Source: Paramacrobiotus metropolitanus (lineage: Eukaryota; Tardigrada; Eutardigrada; Parachela; Macrobiotidae). From it: DNA of 64,000 nucleotides. The stretch is taken from contig NW_026570274.1 in the NCBI RefSeq assembly GCF_019649055.1, forward strand, positions 186,001 to 250,000, read 5' to 3'. The notes under the pieces are model-generated. The model was given only the letters and a program-made list of their open reading frames with translations. It was not told where the DNA came from and ran no database searches. The stretch's first letter is position 1; the number at the start of each line of letters is the position of its first letter. A program made the translations under genes and the position numbers. Of this stretch, positions 6,806-61,939 are shown one piece after another.

Positions 6806-7964
6806 ATGGAAAGATGGAAGGGACGTGTAGCTCTCGTAACGGGAGCATCTGCCGGGATAGGTTATGCCATTGCTGATGCGCTGGCTCGAAACGGCATGAA
6901 AGTGATTGGCTGCGCGCGGAACACCGAGAAAATTCTAGTAAAGTTTAATGGAAAACTACCGCAATTTTGCTTTCAATTTTGATTTCAAATTATTTTGTCA
7001 TTACAATTTAGGAACTAGGCAAAATGCATAAGAGCGGTCCTGGCAGCGTAGAAGCGGTCGTGTGCGACGTTAGCCAGCCTGAACAGATCACCGCTATGTT
7101 CGAGCATATAGAGAAACGCTATAAATACATCGATGTGTTGGTCAACAACGCGGGAATTGCATCATTTGCTTCGTTACTGTCAGGGAAGACTGAGCAATGG
7201 AGGAAACTTTTTGAGGCAGGTGGACAATGTTATTCGCCATTAGCCAATGTTATTCACTACAACTGAAAAGTTAGGTACAGTAGATTTGCTGGTTAAATAA
7301 TGCAGGTGAATGTTCTGGGATTATGTATCTGCGCGAGAGAAGCTTTGAATCTCATTCAAAAGAATGGTGTCACCGACGGCAATATCATTAATATCGGCAG
7401 GTAACAAAACCTTAAAACTGATAATTAATCATTTAATTAGCAACTAGAATCCTTTAACACCACTAGAACTGGCAGTTTACATGTACATCGTAATCTGTAC
7501 CATATTGTACGTCTGAATTGCTGAATTGTTTTTCCGCTCCGTTGCAGTACTGCTGGGCATTCTCATTTAAACTTTCCCGATGGACATTTTTATTCGGGCA
7601 CCAAGCATATGGTCACTTCGCTGACGGAATCTCTGCACCGAGAAGTGCGGGCCATGGAGCCGAAAAACAACATTCGAATCACGGTACAAACAATAACACT
7701 GGGTATTTGTCTGGATCCCAAATATTATTGGAAACGATTTGCGTATATTTACAGGATATTAGTCCTGGAGTTGTAAAGACCGAGATTGTACAGCGGTCTT
7801 TAGCTGAGATCGGTGAATCTCAGGAACAGTTGGATTTTCTGCACGACTACCAAACATTAAGCAGCGAAGAAATAGCAGACAGCGTGCTGTATGTACTGTC
7901 CGCTCCTCAGCATGTTAACGTCAAAACGCTCATCATTGCTCCCACGCAGCAACCGGAGATGTGA
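6806..7964 (+). CDS. Classical short-chain dehydrogenase/reductase (DHRS11-like), copy 1
   Basis: Five exons: 6806-6937, 7012-7215, 7306-7400, 7548-7683, 7755-7964; 258 residues, the normal length for a classical SDR. The cofactor motif TGASAGIG is at residues 12-19, an Arg after strand 2 (GCARN) suggests NADP(H), NNAG is at 89-92, and the catalytic YSGTK is at 159-163 with a Ser at 144. The ISPGVV segment and the end VLSAPQHVNVKTL resemble the DHRS11 branch, cytosolic oxidoreductases of carbonyl/steroid-type substrates; the substrate here is unknown. Exon phases (0,0,2,0) are shared by all four copies in the window, which fixes the splice sites. Intron 2 must start with GC (GAG-GCAGGT) to keep the frame, because its paralogues have GT at that place. 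An AATAAA lies about 10 bases after the stop. Confidence 0.92.
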
Positions 7965-8600: not shown

Positions 8601-9831
8601 AAGTGGCTTTGTTATAAATCTCGTTTTTTCTTGTACTCAGTTTGTACTTACATGACGATACTTATTAAAGGCAGAGAACGAGTACATTACCGTGTTGTTA
8701 TTCGATTTAATATGGTGCTCGCATTGGTATTCAACCGGTTACAGCCACAAAAACCGGTTCGGGTTAAGAATATAATAGAATATAATACTTGCTTTTATAT
8801 CCAATATTCTACACGATTGCTTGTGTTGGTGCATGAGACACACTGTGGGCTGAGCGTCCTTTGCACAGCGCACCTATTAACCGCAAATTTGCCTCGAGCG
8901 CTAACAGCACCGAGCACTGTTTTGATGGACAGTATCTGTATGTGCCGTTAAATTTCGGCAATCAGAAAATTACAGAGCGTGATACCACAATTGATACAAA
9001 TATTCAGCTCTTGAGTACACTTCCATTGCCGCTATGGAAAGATGGCAAGGAAAAACTGCTCTCGTAACGGGAGCATCGGCAGGAATTGGTTACGCTATTG
9101 CCGATGCGCTAGCTCGTAGCGGAATGAAAGTGATTGGTTGTGCGCGCAACACCGAGAAAATTCTGGTAAGTAACTCTAATTAATCGGCTGGATTTTTCAG
9201 TCAAGCGAAAAGTTGTTAATCTTCGGCTCAATAAATGGTGTGGCCTCAATAAAGGAGCTGGCAAAGAAGTACAAGAGCGGACCCGGTTGTGTGGATGCGG
9301 TGCAGTGTGATGTCACCAAAACTGAACAGATTACAGCCATTTTTGAGCACATTGAAAAACATTACAAGCATGTCGATGTGCTAGTTAACAACGCCGGGAT
9401 CGCGAAATATGACACCTTGGTGTCCGGAAGAACCGAAAAATGGCGGGAAATGTTTGAGGTATGGTTGACTTTAGCCTATACGTTGCTTCAATATGTTCAG
9501 TGTAACTGCGCTCAGTTAAAATAATTTAGATAAACGTCCTCGGACTGTGTATTTGCGCGAGGGAGGCACTAAAGCTCATGCAAAAATACAACATTACGGA
9601 CGGCAACATCGTAAACATAAACAGGTAAAATGCAGCGAATAGTTAGCGATTCGTCTGCAGAAAAATAACTGTTTTTACCTGCCAGTTTAGCAGCGTGAGA
9701 TTTTCTGAGGTTGATTAATTCAGTGTTTTGCAATAAACGGTAAGGTTATGCTTGTGATTCTTGCTGGGCTAAAATTGTTATTTGTTGCAGCTACACAGGA
9801 CACTTCCACATGAATTTGAGCAATTTGAGCA

Positions 9832-9871
9832 TCATTCTCGCTTTGAGCAGCTCATTCTCGCTTTGAGCAGC
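9832..9871 (+). repeat. Two tandem 20-bp units in the retrotransposon 5' UTR
   Basis: TCATTCTCGCTTTGAGCAGC occurs twice head to tail, and fragments of it (TTGAGCA) precede it. Repeats near the 5' end of non-LTR elements often belong to internal promoters. That role is only a guess here. Confidence 0.75.
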
Positions 9872-9985
9872 TCGAATACGGATCTTATTTTTTTTTAGCA
9901 CTGTAAACCGTGTATCCGTGTACATCAAGCTGTATGTTAACTGCAGTGACCTTTAACAATATTTTGATTGGAAACTTTAAATATC

Positions 9986-11185
9986 ATGGGTAACCCCGAA
10001 GACGGGGACGACTCTCATGTGGAAGACTTATCTGACCTACAGTATGTTGATCTGATCAAGAAACTATCCGATATTATTGACGAATTGTACGACAACCTGC
10101 CATCCAAAGGTTCCAAGACCAAAATTCTGCCGATTTTGACCGATAACGAGGAGGCCTTGAAGCGCATTCCGTCCCTGCTGAAGGACCATCACATTCGCCT
10201 GTATGAAAACGCCCTGAAAACGGAGACCCAGCTGACCTGTGAGAAGGAACGTGTAATCCAACTGACCCGCGCAAATGTCGGCACTGCCAGTGCTTCTACC
10301 AACGACTACGATACGGAGGAACCATCCCGCCAGCGAGCAACCTACGCCAAGGTGGTCACCAGCTCCAGGCCGCCAAACCAAAAGAAAGTCCTGCTGTTAC
10401 ATCCTAAAGATGCCGCCCCGTCCAACCGTGCCCGTAAGTCCGCCAACGAGATGGCTGATTTCTGCAAAACTCTGACAGAAATTCTTCCCAATGGAATGGA
10501 AACTGCTAACATCACCCATATGAGACCGGCGTCTGGTAAGTCAGTACTGGTAGAATTCAAAAGCGAAGAAGATGCTGTGAGAGGAGAAGCTATGTTTGGT
10601 AAACATGCAGACAAACTTGGTGTGTCTATTAAGAAGCCCGCTTCCCGAAAATACAGAATGATTGTACGCAGAGTGCCAGTTGCTTTAACGGAAGATGAGT
10701 TTTTACGTGAGCTATCGTCAAAAAATTTGCCAGAAAAAAGCGAAGTCAAAGTGGTAACTTTTTTGAAAAGTAGACGTGCCGATTGTAGTACTTGTGCAGT
10801 TGTAATCGAAGTTGACCTTGCGACAAGAAATTATCTGTTAAACGACAGACAAACTGTGAAATTAGGGTGGTTTCTGTGTCCCGTTTCTGATCATTTCTAT
10901 ATTCCTCAGTGCAAAAAATGCTGCGAATTTTTCCATAATGAAAGAGATTGTAAAAGCAAGCCTATGTGTGCGTATTGTGCTAAAGATCATTTGTCAAGTG
11001 ATTGTACAGAGGATGATAACTTTGCTTGTGTGTGCGCAAATTGCCGTAAAGCCGGGAAGTCCTCACCTGAAAATATGCATTCGGCCTTTGCACACGACTG
11101 GTGTGATGTCTACGTAGATCTAAAAAATTCGAAAACCTTTTACAATAGCTATCGAAAAAACGAAGTAAGATCCCGGAACCTATAA
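9986..11185 (+). CDS. Retrotransposon ORF1 protein with CCHC zinc knuckles
   Basis: An intact 399-residue ORF; the frame is open from a TTG at 9968, but the first ATG is 9986. The N-terminal half is acidic and probably helical. The C-terminal quarter has gag-like zinc knuckles starting at about residue 309: C-x2-C-x4-H-x4-C, then C-x2-C-x3-H-x4-C (CAYCAKDHLSSDC), then a third Cys/His group ending HDWC. Such proteins bind the element RNA and form the ribonucleoprotein used in target-primed reverse transcription. The middle (about residues 180-290) has an RNA-recognition-like alternation of strands and helices, which is only suggestive. It is followed after 20 bases by ORF2. Confidence 0.88.
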   Translation: MGNPEDGDDSHVEDLSDLQYVDLIKKLSDIIDELYDNLPSKGSKTKILPILTDNEEALKRIPSLLKDHHIRLYENALKTETQLTCEKERVIQLTRANVGTASASTNDYDTEEPSRQRATYAKVVTSSRPPNQKKVLLLHPKDAAPSNRARKSANEMADFCKTLTEILPNGMETANITHMRPASGKSVLVEFKSEEDAVRGEAMFGKHADKLGVSIKKPASRKYRMIVRRVPVALTEDEFLRELSSKNLPEKSEVKVVTFLKSRRADCSTCAVVIEVDLATRNYLLNDRQTVKLGWFLCPVSDHFYIPQCKKCCEFFHNERDCKSKPMCAYCAKDHLSSDCTEDDNFACVCANCRKAGKSSPENMHSAFAHDWCDVYVDLKNSKTFYNSYRKNEVRSRNL

Positions 11186-11205
11186 AAGCTGATCCAACAA
11201 TCATC

Positions 11206-14175
11206 ATGAAAGAGAATTCTACCCTGAAACCTGACGTGAAAATTTCTAGCCGGTTACGTAATGTTTGTACAGTTAAGGTCCGTTATTCCAATGTAAGAAG
11301 TGTTAACAAAAAAGACAGCGAAATAAAATTTTTTTGTTCCGAAGCGGATATTATTGGTCTAACTGAGACTTGGGACGTTGATGAATTTGTTGATGAAAAG
11401 TTCGCGGATCTTCGTTCTTTTAACGTTTTCAGGAAGAAGCGAGTCGGTAAATTAGGTGGTGGAGTTGCATTAATTGTTCGACAAAACCTTAGACCTTTTA
11501 GATTAACAGAACTGGAAACGGATACTCTTGAAGCAATTTTTGTTAAAATTTCTGCCATTGACAGAATTGTGATGTGTGTGTACATTTCTCCTGAGAAAGT
11601 TCAATCAACAATTCCGATCCTGTTACAACATCTTGAAGAAAAAATTCCAGTTGATGACATGTCTAAATTAATAATTATTGGCGATTTTAATTTGCCAGGC
11701 CTTGACTGGCTGAATATGAAAGGTCAATCACAGGTTGGCGACGATTTGATCTTTTTTTTAAAAGAATTTTCTTTAAGCCAAATAATTAATTTTCCAACTC
11801 GTGAAAAAAACTGTTTAGATTTATGCATGCTTTCCCCTAAGACGTGCGTGGCATATGTGAAGCCAATTAATCCACCGTCGGTCAAATGCGATCATATCGC
11901 CTTTGAACTCTCCATTTCAGTCAAACGAGCAAAGTCTGTACCGTATATGCCGCCGAGTTGGCATATCTCCAATGCCGATGTACAAAGTTTTGTAAATGAT
12001 TTAAGCGGGGTAAACTGGGTTGACCTTTTGAAATCTTCGAGTACCAACAACCGTGTAGAAACGTTCGAAAAAGTATTTGTTGAAATTGCTGAACGATACT
12101 TTGTTTACAAAAGGAAAAAACTTCGCGGCCCTGTTCCCTATCCAATTAATATAAAAAAGTCAATTAAACGTAGAAATAAAGCTTTCAAAAATTATCGTGC
12201 TTTTATTACCAGTTCGGACGAAGCGCTAAAACGTCGCCTTAAAATGATATGGAAGAATTTGTCAAGAAAAGCTGAGCGACTGATATGTAAATTTGAACGT
12301 AGTCGCTTGACTGACGCTGCTACAGCAAGTCGTAATAATCCTAAAAAGTTTTGGCGTTTCGTTAAATCTACCAGTAATAAAATCGGTATCCCCCCGCTGA
12401 AGCTAAATGACGGAAGTTTTGTTTCTTCTGATTCCCAGAAAGCATCTATTTTAAACCATATTTATTCTGAGTCTCAGGGACCATGCAAGAGCCACTGTAT
12501 AGGGTCAGGTCTAAATTTGCAGACAGAGAACAATGAGCCGGCCATAATAACGGAAAGCATGATTTATTACCATATTGCACGCTGTTCGTCCACATCTTCC
12601 AGTGGTCCTTTTAAAATCACTAACACCTTATTAAAACTAGCTGCTCCAGCGATTATCAAGCCGTTAAAAATTGTTTTCGAAGGCGCTCTAAATGAAGGTT
12701 GTTTCCCAACAAAATGGAAGCAATCTTTTATTGTCCCCATTCCGAAAAGCTCGAAAGACCATATGAATCCGAATAATTTTCGCCCGATCTCCATGTTAAG
12801 CCCTTTATCAAAAATTTTTGAACGTTGCATAGACCAACATATTCGCGAATACCTCAAAAAACACCTTAAATTAACTGACCACCAGTTTGCTTATCGCGAG
12901 AAACGTTCGTGCGAACTACAAAATTTTTGGTTAATTAAATCTGTTAGTGACTTTATCGAACGTGGTACCGATGTGCATGCCATTTTTCTTGATTGCTCGA
13001 AAGCATTTGACAAATGTGACCATGAAAAAATTCTGGAAGCACTGATCAAATTGGGAATCTGCAGTCAGGTAGTTCACATAATAGATGATTATTTACGAAA
13101 CCGTGTCCAGTGTGTTATTATAAATGGTAATGTTTCGGATTTTTTGAAGGTAACTAGTGGAGTCCCGCAGGGTTCTGTCTTAGGACCATGCTTGTTTATT
13201 TGCCTGCTAAATTTCCTTTCTTTTATTCTTACCCACGGCAGCGAACTATTAATTTTCGCCGATGATATCGCTATTTATCGCCCAATAATAACAGAAGGTG
13301 ATAAAAATGCGCTACAGGTGGATATCGGTAATGTAAAAAACTGGGCCGATGAGAATAAACTTTTCTTTAACGTTAGCAAAACCTTTCATGTTTGTTTCTC
13401 GAAGAAAAGGTCACTTACGAGTACGCATGAGTATTTTCTTGATGGTACTGCAATAGAGCGCTGTGAAAGTGTAAAGTACCTGGGTATCGTCGTAGACCGC
13501 TCATTAAAATGGAAGGAAAATACGGACGCTGTCGTTTCCAAATGCAGAAAAAGAATCCGTTGGATAAATTTTCTATTTAAAAGAATAAATTCTGCTGCCC
13601 GCATTCAGTTATTTAAATCCTTAGTGCTACCTGTCTTTGACTATTGTTGTAATGTTGTCCCTCCCTTTCATAAAACCAGCCGAGATAAACTTGACCAATG
13701 TATGGAGCGATTTCTAAAAACCGTCCCTTTGGGCCATAGCGACTTTCAAGGTCAATTAAAAGAGTTAAACTGGGACTGTTTCGAAGTTCGCAGGATGAAG
13801 AAATGTCTAATCCTCGCCTACAAATTAATATTTTGTCGCATCCCGCTTGGGGAGAGATTTTATCTTCCATATGAACACGATTCTGCTGGTTTTGTTTCTG
13901 TTGCAGGTAACACCCGATCCGTACATCGACTCCTGAATCACCCATATCCAATTCGTCCAGCCCCGACAGTGCTTTGCGGAACCTCGGTAATACCGACGCC
14001 GGAATCCCATATTCATGAAATCTGCGAGTTATGGAATGAAATAATCTTACCGAAGGAATCATATTCTTCAGTAAACACGTTCAAGAATGCCCTCGACAGA
14101 GTCACCTGGAGTAAACTGCAGTGGAGTAAGCTGCAGCGGACCAAGAAAAACTGCGATACGGACCTGTTGTACTAA
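11206..14175 (+). CDS. Retrotransposon ORF2: endonuclease and reverse transcriptase
   Basis: An uninterrupted 989-residue ORF starting at the ATG 20 bases after ORF1. An apurinic/apyrimidinic-type endonuclease occupies roughly residues 20-240 (IIGLTETWD, GGGVALIVR, GDFNLPGLDW at 159-168, CDHIAFEL). The reverse transcriptase follows at about 500-780 (NNFRPISMLSPLSKIFER, AIFLDCSKAFDKCDH, SGVPQGSVLGP, and the catalytic FADD at 684-687). There is no RNase H or zinc-finger C-terminus typical of other clades. All key residues I can see are present, so the copy may still be able to move (inference). Confidence 0.95.
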   Translation: MKENSTLKPDVKISSRLRNVCTVKVRYSNVRSVNKKDSEIKFFCSEADIIGLTETWDVDEFVDEKFADLRSFNVFRKKRVGKLGGGVALIVRQNLRPFRLTELETDTLEAIFVKISAIDRIVMCVYISPEKVQSTIPILLQHLEEKIPVDDMSKLIIIGDFNLPGLDWLNMKGQSQVGDDLIFFLKEFSLSQIINFPTREKNCLDLCMLSPKTCVAYVKPINPPSVKCDHIAFELSISVKRAKSVPYMPPSWHISNADVQSFVNDLSGVNWVDLLKSSSTNNRVETFEKVFVEIAERYFVYKRKKLRGPVPYPINIKKSIKRRNKAFKNYRAFITSSDEALKRRLKMIWKNLSRKAERLICKFERSRLTDAATASRNNPKKFWRFVKSTSNKIGIPPLKLNDGSFVSSDSQKASILNHIYSESQGPCKSHCIGSGLNLQTENNEPAIITESMIYYHIARCSSTSSSGPFKITNTLLKLAAPAIIKPLKIVFEGALNEGCFPTKWKQSFIVPIPKSSKDHMNPNNFRPISMLSPLSKIFERCIDQHIREYLKKHLKLTDHQFAYREKRSCELQNFWLIKSVSDFIERGTDVHAIFLDCSKAFDKCDHEKILEALIKLGICSQVVHIIDDYLRNRVQCVIINGNVSDFLKVTSGVPQGSVLGPCLFICLLNFLSFILTHGSELLIFADDIAIYRPIITEGDKNALQVDIGNVKNWADENKLFFNVSKTFHVCFSKKRSLTSTHEYFLDGTAIERCESVKYLGIVVDRSLKWKENTDAVVSKCRKRIRWINFLFKRINSAARIQLFKSLVLPVFDYCCNVVPPFHKTSRDKLDQCMERFLKTVPLGHSDFQGQLKELNWDCFEVRRMKKCLILAYKLIFCRIPLGERFYLPYEHDSAGFVSVAGNTRSVHRLLNHPYPIRPAPTVLCGTSVIPTPESHIHEICELWNEIILPKESYSSVNTFKNALDRVTWSKLQWSKLQRTKKNCDTDLLY

Positions 14176-14906
14176 ATTTTAAATTGTATAATATTTCTAC
14201 TGACAACGAACGACTTTGACGACTGCTTCCACTTTGTTTTTGCATGTTTTTGTTTGCCGAAATATGAGCATCTAACACGTAAACGTGAAATGACCTTTAA
14301 CAAATGTTAAAACTTTTCTTTATGATAATTTCAACTTTTGTTCCTTTTGTCTCGAGTGTCAAATGCTTTGAGGGGACTGTGTCCCGATGCATAAGACAAT
14401 AAATTCAATTCAATTTTCCTCAAGGACATTTTTATTCGGGTACCAAGCATATGGTCACGTCGTTGACAGAGTCGTTGCACCGTGAAGTTCGAGCCATGGA
14501 ACCCAAAAACAATATTAGAATTACGGTACTCGCACCACTGAGTCATTAAAGATTTCTGTCTATTGTGTTGCTCTAGCATACTGTGTACACGAATTACGTA
14601 CAATATCCTCGACTACTTTAGCCTGCTAATCCACTGTGCGCGATTTTCAAAAAAGACTAATGTACAAGAATCCCGAATCTCAACTTTGATTTACAGGATA
14701 TCAGTCCGGGAGTTGTCGACACAGAAATCGTGCAGAGGTCCCTGGCTGATCTTAAGGAACCACAGCCCGAGCCGGCCTTTAATAGAGATTATAAAAAGAT
14801 GAGTAGTAACGATGTAGCGGATAGTGTGCTATACGTGTTGTCGGCTCCACAACATGTGAATGTTAAGACGCTCATTGTTGCTCCCACACAACAGCCAGAG
14901 TTGTGA

Positions 14907-15644: not shown

Positions 15645-17019
15645 ATGGATCGATGGAAGGGACGAGTGGCTCTGGTAACCGGCGCTTCCGCTGGAATCGG
15701 CTATGCCATCGCCGATGCGCTTGCGCGTAGTGGAATGGTGGTGATCGGTTGCGCCCGCAATACCGAGAAAATTCTGGTAAGTTTCACAATTGTGTCGCAT
15801 TCAAAATTTTAATGTCGTGTAAATCTGCTCTGCAGGAATTAAGCAAGAAGTATGGGAAGGGAGCTGGCAGTCTGGAAGCCATACAGTGCGATCTGAGCCA
15901 ACCAGACCAAATTACGGCGATGTTTCAACAAATTACCAAAAAGCATAAACAGGTTGATGTGCTGGTAAATAATGCCGGACTGCTCCGGATGGATGATTTA
16001 CTGACGGGTCGCATTGAGAAATGGAGGGAAATGTTGGAGGTCAGTGTTCCACGAGTCATACACCGTATTCAACTGCCTTTAAAGTGTTTACTCACATAAA
16101 GAGCCAAGAACGTGCATGAAGTTATTTCAGTTTTGTAATGTTTCATACACAGGTTAACGTTCTTGGGTTAAGTATCTGCGCGAGGGAAGCACTTAAATTA
16201 ATGCCGCAAGATGGAAACATTATCAACATTAACAGGTTTGTGATGCTGCACCAATAATGTTCATACAGCGAGTGCTCAGTAATTATCAATTTTAATAATA
16301 ACAAAACACAAAAAGCCCGACTTTAATACATTATAGGAGCATTGTTCATTTTTTCGGGTGCGCTTAGTTTGTTATTGTTACTGGTAATAATTATGATCGT
16401 TTTTACGTTTATTATGAGGCATTCGTTTAATTGTAATTGCGGTTATTTTAGCACGGAAAGTCCATACAGTTCAAATTTCTGACAGTGATTTTCTTTTTAC
16501 AGTTACGTTGGGCACTTTCACACCAATTTCAAGGGCAGCCATTTTTACACGGGCACGAAACATATGATTACGTCGCTTACGGAATCCCTACACCGCGAAG
16601 TGCGCGCTATGGAGCCGAAAAACAATATCCGAATTACAGTGAGAACACGGCCTTTTAAATGGCTACTATATCTGTAGTGTAAATGTAACTAACAGTCTAT
16701 TAGCACGACATTATACGCCCGCCAGAAATTGTCCCGTTAACACTTTACAAGTTTGTTGATTATACGGTGTAACAGGAGAATTATAAGCTCTTATATACAG
16801 GACATTAGTCCGGGAGTTGTGGAAACAGAGATTATGCAGCGGTCGCTGGCTGATGCTCCGCAAGCAACGGATATATCAACCATGCCATCCAGAAGCTGGG
16901 AGTATGAGAAGTTGAAAGGTCAAGATATTGCGGACAGCGTACTGTATGTCTTGTCGGCACCGCAGCATGTCAACGTCAAAACCTTGATCGTTGCACCCAC
17001 ACAGCAACCCGAACTTTGA
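15645..17019 (+). CDS. Classical short-chain dehydrogenase/reductase (DHRS11-like), copy 3
   Basis: Five exons: 15645-15776, 15836-16039, 16153-16235, 16503-16638, 16801-17019; 257 residues. It carries TGASAGIG, GCARN, NNAG, YTGTK (active-site Tyr and Lys) and the DISPGVVETE / VLSAPQHVNVKTL ending. Exon 3 is 12 nt shorter than in the other copies (a four-residue loop deletion before GNIINI), and exon 5 is 9 nt longer. All splice sites are GT-AG. It appears intact and functional. It lies in the same direction as copies 1 and 2, 738 bp after copy 2, consistent with tandem duplication. The substrate cannot be told from sequence. Confidence 0.93.
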
Positions 17020-28603: not shown

Positions 28604-30186
28604 CTACAATTCCGGCTGCTGTGTTGCACATACAATTAGAGTTTTAACATTAACGTGCGGCGGCGCAGATAAGACGTATATAACACTATCGGCAATGTCC
28701 TTTGGGCTCAGTTTCTCAAACTCCGGTTGCTTCGAATAAGGCTGATCGGACGACAAATCTTGGACGTCGGCCATGGATCGCTGAAAAATTTCCGTTGCCA
28801 CAATACCCGGACTAATATCCTAAAATAATGCCGCAAAACTGTAATACTAATGTACAAGAGGAATTTAGTGTGTACCCTGACATATTATAAGACGAATTCA
28901 GCGTAGCATTATGCAAATTTGTATAACTTTCTTGTACTACGCTAGTCATCCGCTCGAAGATTTGTGTGGTAATATTCTTGTCCGAATGATGGAAAAGTCC
29001 GATAACGGGAGCAGGAGGAAGGTGTATAATGCGTGATGCGACATGGAATTTTTTATCCTTAACTACAGCAGTAATTTGTCGGAATTATAAAAGTATTTTG
29101 ATGCTGCTATATACCGTAATTCTTATATCGTTTTTTGGTTCCATTCCTCGAACTTCTCGATGTAGAGACTCCGTTAGGGAAGTCACCATGTGCTTGGTTC
29201 CGGAATAAAAGTGGCTTCCAGGGAAATTTACATGGAAATGACCAACTCGACTGCAAATATTTTTTATATTTATATTCTTACAATATTTATCTCGCATTCA
29301 TAGTTGTGTATTAGCAGATAAAGATGGCTTTACTTGCGAGGCTTTACTTGCTTTACGGTTTACTTGCTTTACTTGTATACATTATACTTTAGTATAATGT
29401 ATACAAGTATACATTATACTTTAGTATAATGTATACATTATACTTTAGTATAATGTATACATTATACTATAGTATAATGTATACATCGTTGTTGACAAGT
29501 GACAAGTATTTTACTAGGTTTATGATTATTAGCTGGAGATGCGTTTTTAACCGAAAGAAATGTCATGCGAATAGCCGAGAATCTACCTGTTAATGTTGAT
29601 GATGGTTCCATCACTGATTCCATCTTCTTGCATAAGTTTCAACGCTTCCCGTGCACACATGCACAATCCCATGATGTTAACCTGTGATGACCATCTTTAT
29701 GTAACCATAGTTGTGATTGTCGTTATTACTGAGAGGATGCCATTTCTGCAAATGCACATACCAATTTAAAAAGTAAATAATGCTGGTCTTACTTCTAGCA
29801 TTTCACGCCATTTCTCTGTTCGACCCGCTACCAAGGAATCCAGCTTGATCAGTCCGGCATTGTTAATCAAGACGTCGATATGTTTATACTGTTTCTTGAT
29901 ATGCTCGAACATTGCGCGGACTTCATTCTCGTTAGTAACATCGCACTTAATGGCATTCACGTTTCCAGGACCATTTGCATGTTTCTTCGCCAATTCCTGT
30001 CATAACCACAGATATATTATTCCAGCTGCTAGTGAAATTATAAGGCAAACTTTCCAGAATTTTGTCCGTAGTGCGTGCGCATCCAATCACGGTCATTCCG
30101 CTGTAGGCCAGCGCATCGGCGACACCGTACCCGATGCCGGATGATGCACCGGTGACCAGTGCGGTTCGTCCTTTCCAGCGCTCCAT
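28604..30186 (-). CDS. Short-chain dehydrogenase/reductase (DHRS11-like), copy 4, with a defective first splice donor
   Basis: Exons on the minus strand by comparison with the other copies: 30186-30055, 29996-29793, 29681-29587, 29250-29115, 28819-28604; 260 residues if spliced as in its paralogues. Motifs: TGASSGIG, GCARTT, INNAG, YSGTK, DISPGIVATE, VLSAPPHVNVKTL. It is the most diverged of the four (AYSGMT for ARSGMK, IKCDVT). At the exon 1 boundary the usual CTG-GTAAGT reads CTG-GAAAGT, so position +2 of the donor is A. Reading on, or using the next GT four bases later, shifts the frame. All other sites are GT-AG and the coding exons are open. It may be newly inactivated, use a rare GA-AG splice, or reflect a base error. 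It lies about 11.6 kb from the tandem trio and in opposite orientation. Confidence 0.82.
29375..29486. repeat. Array of palindromic 24-bp units in an SDR intron
   Basis: GTATACATTATACT and AGTATAATGTATAC alternate about four times; each unit is itself a palindrome, and the whole array folds in many ways. It lies in intron 3 of SDR copy 4 and is preceded by short TTTACTTGC repeats. A tandem array of perfect palindromes is unstable DNA and may be a repeat expansion. Confidence 0.85.
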
Positions 30187-40338: not shown

Positions 40339-40471
40339 ACGGCCGCACCTTCGTCGGACGGCAGTCAGGCCCCCTAACCACGGCGGCGCTCTCCTCCGAC
40401 GGCAAGCAGGCCCACCATTGACGGCCGCACCTTCGTCGGACGGCAGTCAGGCCCCCTAACCACGGCGGCGC
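40339..40471 (+). repeat. Duplicated 51-bp block in a GC-rich minisatellite
   Basis: The 51 bases at 40339-40389 recur at 40421-40471 (both begin ACGGCCGCACCTTCGTCGG). Around them, from about 40250 to 41230, diverged units built of CTCCGACGGCA and CTACGGC.GCAC modules follow one another every 35-50 bases. Confidence 0.75.
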
Positions 40472-41280
40472 CCTCCGACGGCACGCAGCCCCCTAGCAAC
40501 GGCGGCTCTCTTCATTTGCCAGCTAGTTAGACCTTCTACTACATCTGCACTTTTCTGGGACGGCTAGGCAGGCTCCCAGTGACGCCTGCTCCACCTTCTG
40601 GGCGGCAAGGCATCACACCTACTACGGCGGCACGTCGAAGCAGCTCTCTAACTACGGCCGCACCTACCTCTCCGACGGGAAAGATAGGCTTTAGAGAAAG
40701 CTGCCTTACTTCGTACGGATTGGTAGCATTTCAACTACAGTAGCATCGTCTTTTAATGACAAGATAAACCACCAAGGAACGCCCGCACCTTCCTTGGACG
40801 GCAAAGCAGACCATTTACTGTTTACTGAGGCTGCATCTGCCTCCGACGGCAAGATGGAGCTGCAAGGATGGCTGCACCTTTCTAGGACGGCAGACAAGCA
40901 CCACAGCACGGGCGGCGCCCCCCCCCTCCGACGGCAAGCTACGCTATTTCCGTTGCCAAAGAATGCACCCAACTACGCCTTTAAATCCTACGGGCAGCAA
41001 GACGGTTCGTCCATTTTCGACTGCACCTACCTCAGTCGGTAAAATAGGCCTCCAGCAACGGCTGTATCATTCTTCGCGGCAAGGTGATCTTCCGACTTCG
41101 GCCGCACCTGATTACGACAGCAAAGCCGGCCGCCATTGGCTGCAGCATTTCCTTCAACTACAAAGCAAGACACCAACGACAAACTGCACCATTTCTGACG
41201 ATAAGGTGGAATGGTTCCGTCACCTAGCACAAACCTAAAATCTCCATTGCGACGCCCGTACAGCACAGTTCACCTGCAGT

Positions 41281-58489: not shown

Positions 58490-61400
58490 TCATCCTCGCG
58501 GGCAACTTTGGCAGCAGAAGTGGGAATATCCGCTGGTGCAACAGCTGCTAGCCGCGTATCCGCTCTGGCAGCAGTTTCCCCATCCGCAGGAGCACTCAAT
58601 ACGGCATCCAACGTTTCGCCCGACCGACACAACCGGGTCAACAATATGACCGATAACATCTCCCCACCATGAGCGCTTCTCGCGTGGCGACAAATGATGC
58701 ACTTCGTTGTGCTGGAGCTCCAGTGGATTCAAGTAGCCAACATGGTCGCCTTCATGGAGTCTGGTGTCCAGATCGCTCGGCTTCGGTGGAACGGCTGGAG
58801 AAGTAAACCCTTATCCAGGTGAATTAATGAAATGCGAATGCATGCATGATGCAGTTACGAGTTTATCATAAAATATTTTATTGTATTATATAAAAGGGTA
58901 CCCTTATAGGCACCCCCTAAAACCCCCGTTTATTATAGGCACCCCTTTTCACACCCCGTTTATTATAGGCACCCTTTTTGGAATTAAAAGTTATAATAGT
59001 ATTATCTGAAAGGAAAATAATTCACATATTCCAAAAATTTATTCTATTATTTTATGCAGTTGCTATGACCGTAAAAACTTACTTTGAACAAAAGGTCAGT
59101 GTAATAGGGTTTTACATACATATTACATATGCATCAATAATTTGGTTCTCAATACCGGCAAATATCATATTATGGCGGGTTCAAGCAGCCCTCCGGCATC
59201 GGGGCCATCGGAAGCCTTAACTGATTTAGTATTCCCCTCACTCGACAACGTCGCTGACCTGAAGGACGAATACCCTTCATTTGAAGAATTCGAGAAAGAC
59301 TTCAAGACGTATCAGGAAGCAACGTTCCAAACATTTATAATACGACGGTCCGAAAAGTTCAAGAACGGAGAAGCACTGGAGCCGTCCCTTAAGTACAGAA
59401 AGATTTTCTACGAATGCGTGCACCACAAAGAATACGAAAAGAAGGGCGTTGGCGCTCGGACATTCACTCATAGCCGACGAAACCAGTGCCCAGCTCGCGT
59501 CAGGCTTGCAGCCAGCATTCGCGGCAACGTCCTACGGATACTGGAACGAGAAATGGGCCATAATCATCCACTGACAGCAGACAGGTGGAAAAATCTACCG
59601 GAAAATCGTCGCCTAAGCCATGTTCAGGCAGAAAAGGTAGTACAAATGCAGAAATCATTCATCCCTGCACGGGCAATTCAACGTCAAATTGCTAAAGAGA
59701 CCGGCAAAGCTGTAACAGCCCAAGACATACAAAATGTCCGCAACAAAGCGGAAAAAGTGGACCGCGGTGGCTGTACGGAAGAGGGAATGGTTAATCACGT
59801 TTTAAACGAAATACGTGTGAAAGATCCAAACGTTTTCGTGAATGTGGTCGTCTCTGACACCGGAAAGGTCAACAATATCACTATCATCACATCTGAAATG
59901 CAGAAGAATTTCCGGGACAGTCCATCTTTGTGCTTTATCGACGGAACTTACAAAATCAACGCCGAGAATTATTGCTTATACGCCGTTGTCGTGCAGGACC
60001 GACATGGAAGAGGAAGGCCGGCGGCACTGGGGCTAATGTCTTCTGAGAAGGGTGAAAACTTGGATGCTTTTTTCCAGGCATTTAAAGCATGTCACACAGA
60101 TTGGAAGTAAGCAACCGCCTAGATATCGTACATACCAATGTGATTACCGCACTGTAAAAATACACATATGCCATGATTTCTTGACAGACTGCTGGAGACC
60201 GTATTCGTGGATAAAGACTACAATGAAATAGGCGGACTGCAGCGAAACTTTCCGGACGTTCGAATTCTGTTATGCGTGTGGCACGTTTTGGCGTACATCC
60301 GCAAATAAAACTCAAAACTGTGGGCCTGGGTGAAAACGGCATAGGAGTGCCGCTGAACCTTTACGACAGCGACTTGGCTGATGTCCTGGCGGTTGGCCGG
60401 ATGCTATATGACAGAGTCATCGGCATCTTCTCATATCTATGCCAAAAAGGAAATCCAGGACGATTTACCGGCCTCGCAGATCCAGGCGACCTTGCCATCT
60501 GCAATCCCGACGCGGAGGAGGTAAGGCGCATACAGAATGATCTGGCGGCAGGAATGGAATGTATCCAGGCCCTGTATGGCTCAAACCATTTTGTACTGTC
60601 GCACAAAAGGCCATCCGAGAACACAGTTCGCTTGTATAACAGTATGAATGCTCCGCTGTCGCCGCACGTTCAACTGCAGCTGTCCATGCTGTACGGTGGC
60701 GAACAGAATCCGGTCACCGCAGTGTTTCCGATTGTCCAGCTTCAGTTGCCGGGGTCCAATCAGTGCGGCCCGATGGTGTGTTCCTATATGGCTGAACTGA
60801 TCTCTGGGGTATCGCCGGCGAGCACTGTATTCGCGAAAGCCTCAGCGCAAAGGGAATGGTTGGCCGAAGTGTTACAGGCTGAGAAAATCACACGGTGTCC
60901 TAAACGGCTTGGAAGGAAGGCAGTGAATGAGCTGACTACCGCGAAAGATGACCTTCTAGTCACAGTAGAAGACGCGATATTAATTCGTTCTACAATCTGA
61001 CTAAATGAGGACGCTACGGTCTATGTTAAAAAGCCAGCGAACAGCCTTTTTTGCCCGCTGAGGCTGGTTGATCAATGCAGCCTCTCTGTTGTGACTATAA
61101 GCAGACCGAAGACAGCGGATTCCAGTGCTGCCAAAAAGCGCAAGCTGAATGCGGCCTTGCTGTATTGATCGAGCGGCACATGTGTGTGCGAGTGGGTTAA
61201 TCCGCTCGCATTCACTTACACACGTATGAGTGTGGCTGTCTGTGCGCGTACGAGCTGTAGAAACCGGTTTTCGCTGTCTTCGCTAGAACGCACACCCTAA
61301 ACCCGTAGCTTCCTTTCTTGCTCGCATTGTAGGCTGGCTGATTTACCTAACCGTCCTATTATAGGCTGGAAAGCCTGATGTACTTGTACTTAACTCGATG

Positions 61401-61939
61401 CCAGAAAAAATTGCTGTACTATTATCCGAATAAAACTGCATTACTAATTAAGAATACAAATTCTGTTATATATAGATATATATATAGTTGTATATGGTCT
61501 GTTATTTTTACGGTCATAGCAACTGTATAAAATGATAAAATAAATTTTTGGAATATGTGAATTATATTCCTTTCACATAATATTATTATAACTTTTAATT
61601 CAAAAAAGGGTGCCTATAATTAACGGGGTGTGAAAAGGGGTGCCTATAATAAACGGGGGTTTTAGGGGGTGCCTATAACGGTTTCCTATATAAAAACATA
61701 TAATTGTATTATATAAAAACAACAAAGGATTTCTGACGGACTGAAAATTTGGTTGTACTATCGTTGCTGCGTAGTCGTATATAGCTAAAACAGTTTCTTA
61801 TACCGGCCGAAACTACTTGCATCTGCATGCACATTATCAATTTAGTATAAAAACGGTGATACTGACCGATAGCTGTTGTTGCACTTCCTACCAGAGCCAG
61901 GACGGCTCCAAACAGGAGCAAAAGTTTGCCTGCGAACAT
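58490..61939 (-). CDS. Small cysteine-rich secreted peptide precursor with a transposon in its intron
   Basis: Two exons on the minus strand: 61939-61867 (73 nt) and 58809-58490, phase 1, 130 residues. Exon 1 is a complete signal peptide (MFAGKLLLLFGAVLALVGSA). Exon 2 starts with a Pro-rich spacer, then LHEGDHVGYLNPLEL, a furin-type site REKR at 67-70, and a 60-residue mature part beginning SWWGDV. Its ten Cys follow C-x3-C-x-C-x4-CC-x8-CC-x7-CC-x2-C, with CC-x-SGY used twice, and the last residue is Gly (possible amidation). The paralogue at 62961 has an exon 1 of exactly 73 nt and the same phase, supporting the splice model. The acceptor (GGATAAG) is weak. The intron is 3057 bp, of which 2.8 kb is an inserted Mutator-like element. 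Function unknown; a disulphide-rich signalling or defence peptide is possible. Confidence 0.72.
58896..61686 (+). mobile_element. Mutator-like transposon with 181-bp terminal inverted repeats and 9-bp target duplication
   Basis: TATATAAAA at 58887-58895 is repeated at 61687-61695, a 9-bp target duplication as expected for Mutator-like elements. The 2791-bp element begins GGGTACCCTTATAGGCACC and ends with the inverted GG-AAACC-GTTATAGGCACC. Terminal inverted repeats run 58896-59076 and 61506-61686 and contain two or three subterminal copies of TTTATTATAGGCACCCC each. Inside is a MULE-type transposase followed by a ULP1-like protease. It lies in the intron of the Cys-rich peptide gene, in opposite orientation. 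Confidence 0.9.
59172..61000 (+). pseudogene. MULE-type transposase with ULP1-like cysteine protease, internally broken
   Basis: ATG at 59172 (the longer frame begins with TTG). Exon 1 (59172-60106) has a FAR1/FLYWCH-like region (RKIFYECVHHKEY, GHNHPLTADRW) and the start of the transposase core FIDGTYKIN with catalytic Asp 257. A short intron (60107-60187) leads to VFVDKDYNEIGGLQRNFP (second Asp) and ILLCVWHVLAYIRK, then TAA at 60306. A second frame from 60272 to 61000 encodes a ULP1/C48-type protease tail: GSNHFVLSH (His at 60587), VRLYNSM (Asn where Asp is usual), LPGSNQCGPMVCSY (Cys at 60764). The third acidic residue and SWIM finger expected between these are missing, so an internal deletion or frameshift near 60290-60310 is likely. 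Beyond the stop, another frame carries the NLS-like AAKKRKLN (about 61131). Confidence 0.75.

Follow-up and report, generated by a model that had tools for sequence, protein, structure and literature searches.

What becomes of a gene when a complete retrotransposon lands in one of its coding exons? We addressed this question in a 64,000-nucleotide stretch of Paramacrobiotus metropolitanus contig NW_026570274.1 (positions 186,001 to 250,000 of the forward strand; hereafter the window, numbered from its first base), which holds four copies of a short-chain dehydrogenase/reductase (SDR) gene, the second of them interrupted by a retrotransposon without long terminal repeats (LTRs) (Table 1). We conclude with high confidence that a full-length long interspersed nuclear element (LINE) of the Jockey superfamily was inserted by target-primed reverse transcription into exon 4 of SDR copy 2, that the resulting allele should be null and that the insertion is probably young. 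The event is an ordinary LINE insertional mutation, a textbook process, and no new kind of system.

Gene models for the SDR copies, each with five coding exons, were built from the homology of exon pieces to the paralogues. Exon 4 of copy 2 spans 9791-14525 (4735 nt); removing 9818-14416, which comprises the element and one AATTT, leaves an in-frame exon of 136 nt, the length found in all three other copies and the one that a first-pass annotation of this DNA had claimed. The rejoined frame encodes 258 amino acids without a stop, and none of the five exons carries a stop or a frameshift. It contains the NNAG, INS and YSGTK strings of a classical SDR, in which we take INS to hold the catalytic Ser and YSGTK the Tyr-Lys pair; the insertion point falls between these two. 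Read unspliced, the SDR frame would run into the 5' untranslated region (UTR) of the element, meet a stop within its first 49 nt and end after 168 amino acids, short of the catalytic Tyr-Lys, so the allele should be null for the enzyme; the loss of function put forward in the first-pass annotation is well supported.

With copy 3 as query, the host family matches adh_short (E 3.4e-46), and its nearest solved sequences are 1xg5 (ARPG836, presumably DHRS11) and 7w61 (farnesol dehydrogenase). By sequence the host gene belongs to the same family as these DHRS11-like and farnesol dehydrogenase SDRs, and it differs from them in being one of four local copies, and interrupted. None of the 25 best NCBIfam families for rejoined copy 2 reached its own cut-off, and we therefore give the gene no finer name than classical SDR.

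Table 1. Positions of the SDR copies, the inserted element and its junctions within the window.
Feature	Positions	Strand	Remarks
SDR copy 1	6806..7964	+	intron 2 donor GC
SDR copy 2	9034..14906	+	interrupted
SDR copy 2 exon 1	9034..9165	+	132 nt, coding from ATG; homology model
SDR copy 2 exon 2	9255..9458	+	204 nt; acceptor AAAG
SDR copy 2 exon 3	9530..9624	+	95 nt
SDR copy 2 exon 4, left part	9791..9817	+	ends in left AATTT
Target-site duplication, left copy AATTT	9813..9817	+	end of left exon 4 part
Non-LTR retrotransposon	9818..14411	+	4594 bp; same strand as interrupted SDR gene
Element 5' UTR	9818..9985	+	168 nt; contains 20-bp tandem repeat, 9824-9873
First in-frame stop of interrupted SDR frame	9864..9866	+	unspliced reading; within first 49 nt of element
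Open reading frame 1 (ORF1)	9986..11185	+	399 codons + stop; two RRM-like folds (predicted, low confidence), three C-terminal CCHC-type knuckles
ORF2	11206..14175	+	989 codons + stop; APE-type endonuclease + reverse transcriptase
Element 3' UTR	14176..14411	+	236 nt; AATAAA at 14398; ends in two AATTC units; without poly(A)
Target-site duplication, right copy AATTT	14412..14416	+	first four letters also continue element tail
SDR copy 2 exon 4, right part	14417..14525	+	carries YSGTK
SDR copy 2 exon 5 + stop	14697..14906	+	
SDR copy 3	15645..17019	+	
SDR copy 4	28604..30186	-	intron 1 donor GA

The junctions bear on how the element arrived. AATTT flanks it on both sides, as expected of a LINE, and a 5-bp identity of this kind arose in 263 of 200,000 random junction pairs drawn from the window. 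The element ends in an AATTC-periodic tail, and this period carries on through four of the five letters of the right AATTT, so that the duplication is 1 to 5 bp long (1 bp is sure, 5 bp is the full match); the 5-bp duplication described in the first-pass annotation is thus present as letters and uncertain in length. The 5' junction is slightly ambiguous too, with AATTTGAGC present twice at 9813-9830. Exact restoration of the exon is stronger evidence than the duplication. In the mechanism that we propose, the element was copied into exon 4 by target-primed reverse transcription: firstly, its endonuclease would nick the bottom strand at the A/T-rich site ATGAATTTTCC; secondly, the freed bottom-strand 3' end, ...GGAAAATT (reading ...AATT), would pair with AAUU in the RNA tail of AAUUC repeats and so provide the primer for reverse transcription, a step suggested by the overlap of target and tail sequences; thirdly, joining of the second strand would leave the AATTT duplication. 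The insertion is known from a single assembled sequence, and a retrotransposon read misjoined into the SDR gene could in principle give the same picture; such an assembly artefact is exceedingly improbable, as the precise junctions, the shared 5-mer and the exact exon restoration are what a real target-primed insertion is expected to produce.

The element itself has the anatomy of a complete LINE. Both of its ORFs are uninterrupted, as noted in the first pass, and Pfam places an endonuclease (PF03372/PF14529) at residues 46-232 of ORF2 and RVT_1 (PF00078) at 512-762. The endonuclease is thus N-terminal to the reverse transcriptase (RT), the order of an APE-type LINE. The usual motif strings of both domains, the visible catalytic motifs of the first-pass annotation, were picked out by eye and located in ORF2, and LINE-1 ORF2 chains rank among the best solved-structure relatives of this protein. 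A repeat search over 9750-14650 found no LTRs, in keeping with a LINE; the only direct repeat linking the end regions is non-terminal (18 nt, 89%, 9942-9959 and 14286-14303). Nowhere else in the window is the element repeated: DNA matches outside it span 19-23 nt with E ≥ 0.25, and further matches to its proteins have E ≥ 1.3. The window also yielded neither an Rfam family at gathering score nor a tRNA.

Near its 5' end, the 20-bp tandem unit at 9824-9873 places TCATTC initiator-like motifs at 9832 and 9852. In the part of PMC2861651 drawn on here, the CATT with which a jockey-clade element starts is described as the initiator motif of an internal RNA polymerase II promoter, and Hebe and Drosophila non-LTR elements share with the present one a CATT motif near the 5' end. 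Unlike theirs, the motif here is doubled in tandem units and lies at least 14 nt from the left junction (PMC2861651, same part). A doubled initiator would let a transcript begun at the upstream unit retain the downstream one.

To place the element among LINEs, we compared its two proteins with known families. In ORF1, three Cys/His clusters of CCHC-like form begin at residues 309, 328 and 350 (identified by eye; the third is more widely spaced), with no Pfam knuckle match at E ≤ 1. No Pfam family was significant for ORF1; three matches fell below threshold, one of them Smg4_UPF3 at E 0.016. An AlphaFold model built from two sequences (mean pLDDT 44) gives the strand and helix order of an RRM at 135-216 and a second such fold from 223, in which the last strand is not called. 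Foldseek returned eight matches to this model at E ≤ 0.001, to IMP3 RRM1-2 (five rows) and U2AF (two rows) among others; their TM-scores are low, at 0.14-0.17 on the query, and their rmsd is 11-17. ORF1 also matches the ORF1 of a contig that is filed as a bacterium and LINE-like in content (L019; 24% identity over 252 columns, E 3e-13), with two of the knuckles and part of the third aligned. Near the N-terminus of that contig's ORF1 lies a stretch rich in Cys that looks PHD-like by eye, whereas ours lacks such a stretch: no PHD family matched it at E ≤ 1, and its first 150 residues hold one Cys.

A type I ORF1 is defined by one or more RRMs immediately upstream of CCHC knuckles (PMC4120745, in the section used here), and the predicted RRM-like folds before three knuckles make the window's ORF1 look like one. 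Two ORFs and an ORF2 of APE plus RT are shared with the Jockey superfamily (Jockey, CR1 and L2) as that section describes it, and the predicted ORF1 arrangement would be a further likeness. In Table 1 of the same source, two RRMs and three CCHCs without a PHD occur in Jockey subgroup 1 (75 elements) and L2 subgroup 8 (4), and a PHD is added in CR1 subgroup 3 (8, Aedes) and L2 subgroup 2 (16, from mosquitoes save one). The element therefore differs from these mosquito type IC groups in lacking the PHD and resembles Jockey type IB (PMC4120745). Its tail counts mildly against Jockey: the jockey-clade Hebe has a poly(A) tail (PMC2861651, as excerpted), in contrast to the AATTC tail here. Tail type is not a strict guide to lineage, because the CR1 element BmCR1B of Bombyx mori ends in poly(A) (PMC1925062, likewise in excerpt).

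ORF2 and its RT were compared more widely. Peptide-pattern searches of viral contigs (with whole ORF2 and a 58-residue piece) and of prokaryote contigs (with whole ORF2) confirmed no relatives of ORF2. A DNA pattern for GVPQG(S/T)VLGP retrieved two viral and 26 prokaryote-filed contigs, 21 of the 28 with an RT match at 1e-10; 19 of these 21 entered an RT tree as unlabelled RTs, L019 and L020 being left out for length (< 250 amino acids), and there the branch of the element is long (1.78) and attaches to an open fork. The single match among phage records and the six among plasmid records cover 13-25% of ORF2 each at 26-34% identity and are of no use for lineage. ORF2 contains no RNase H family at E ≤ 0.001; I elements carry RNase H, so the element does not show this mark of the I clade. 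We file it as a Jockey-superfamily (Jockey/CR1/L2) LINE at superfamily level only: the label "CR1/Jockey-type" proposed in the first-pass annotation is right at that level, and the RT tree does not settle the lineage within it. A more elaborate picture, in which a mosaic LINE combining a Jockey-type ORF1 lacking a PHD, a CR1/L2-type ORF2 and repeat tail and a tandem initiator promoter is still jumping and segregating null alleles in a farnesol-dehydrogenase-like family, strikes us as distinctly unlikely.

The 26 prokaryote-filed contigs with the GVPQG-type RT pattern (L003-L028), 21 of which match the RT of the element at 1e-10, are probably eukaryote contamination, and several come from mussel-symbiont bins.

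How long ago did the insertion occur? We modelled decay over the 4170 coding nucleotides of the two element ORFs, in which 3.9% of single-base changes create a stop. The indel:substitution ratio was assumed to be 0.05, 0.1 or 0.2, and 85% of indels were taken as frameshifts. Each 1% of neutral divergence should then bring 3.4, 5.2 or 8.7 disabling changes, respectively; none is seen, which bounds the neutral decay of these frames at 0.88, 0.58 or 0.34% (95% upper limits). For an old and fixed insertion, the element would have to be intact by chance or through gene conversion from an active relative; with that many disabling changes expected for each 1% of divergence, and with the flanking SDR exons likewise intact, this is very improbable.

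The host gene gives a second view of age. The NG86 method returned no synonymous divergence (dS) for any of the six SDR pairs, and the copies were compared instead by private changes over 254 of 262 aligned codons, with synonymous changes counted only where the amino acid is identical in all four copies. Private amino-acid changes number 17, 7, 14 and 23 in copies 1-4, fewest in the interrupted copy 2, and private synonymous changes 13, 13, 10 and 15; the amino-acid:synonymous ratio is 7:13 in copy 2 versus 54:38 in the others (Fisher p = 0.08). The low erosion of copy 2 is consistent with a functional gene hit recently. Because the element frames are intact and copy 2 is the least eroded, the insertion is probably young in evolutionary terms, which lends indirect support to the first-pass description "very recent".

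Could copy 2 have been non-functional or dispensable already, so that the insertion had little effect? Its intron 1 acceptor, CAATAAAG/GAG (AAAG), is the only non-YAG site among 16 SDR acceptors and adjoins an imperfect 18-bp tandem duplication at 9227-9262 (CTCAATAAATGGTGTGGC and CTCAATAAAGGAGCTGGC); an AG at 9199-9200 scores higher (8.9) but needs a 35-nt intron, which is probably too short. Against these hints of earlier damage, the acceptor scores 5.2 in a small leave-one-out comparison, mid-range among the 15 others (-1.4 to 12.8, six of them at or below 5.0), private amino-acid changes are fewest in copy 2, and with the flanks rejoined none of its five exons shows a stop or a frameshift. 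We consider prior loss of function unlikely. A defect in this acceptor is possible; we considered treating the site as broken and, given its mid-range score, did not adopt that view. The earlier statement that the host gene has "no other lesion" holds for stops and frameshifts in the exons and is too strong for the acceptor and the adjoining duplication.

Several points weigh against our overall explanation. The age bound depends on the assumed indel ratios and the 85% frameshift share, and not on other copies of the element; taken alone, the lower erosion of copy 2 falls short of significance; the atypical acceptor of intron 1 in that copy could be older than the insertion; and the short duplication is partly accounted for by the tail.

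The first-pass suggestion that paralogues may compensate for copy 2 is weakened by splice sites in two of the other copies. In the conserved exon model, the intron 2 donor of copy 1 is a GC site (GAG/GCAGGT, 7216-7223), and the intron 1 donor of copy 4 is CTG/GAAAGT, not CTG/GT (30047-30054, minus strand). It is possible that copy 4 is a pseudogene, or that it splices from a non-canonical donor. Since each has one non-GT donor, copies 1 and 4 are not obviously sound substitutes for copy 2; moreover, pairwise identity among the four proteins is only 66.5-78.3%. Intron 3 of copy 4 also contains a palindromic TATACATTATACTTTAGTATAATG-type tandem array (29370-29486).

Full-length LINEs with intact ORFs, including CR1, are reported from Anopheles gambiae (PMC3442997, in part), and recent LINE activity from Aedes and other mosquitoes (PMC1947958, in part). 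In a search of the Anopheles literature for a retrotransposon inserted in a dehydrogenase exon or pseudogene, no case of this kind appears among the 20 titles listed (of 24 papers). The locus offers a clean case in which a LINE has knocked out a single gene of a local family. Were the insertion polymorphic, natural strains with empty and with filled alleles could serve to test the function and redundancy of this SDR, and the element would rank as a candidate for a live retrotransposon in this species.

Elsewhere in the window, 58904-61678 is a probable MULE-type DNA transposon. Its 76-bp ends (58904-58979 and 61603-61678) are inverted copies with one difference by eye, each with a 30-bp tandem repeat; one ORF (59088-60110) encodes MULE and ZSWIM-type RNase H-like domains, and another (60227-61000) has no Pfam match. 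The near-identical ends suggest that this element, too, arrived recently. A GC-rich 41/82-bp tandem array lies at 40339-40506, within a 2-kb stretch of 55% G+C; all remaining 2-kb bins have 38-47%. The window also contains genes for chitin synthase and for a seven-transmembrane (7TM) receptor.

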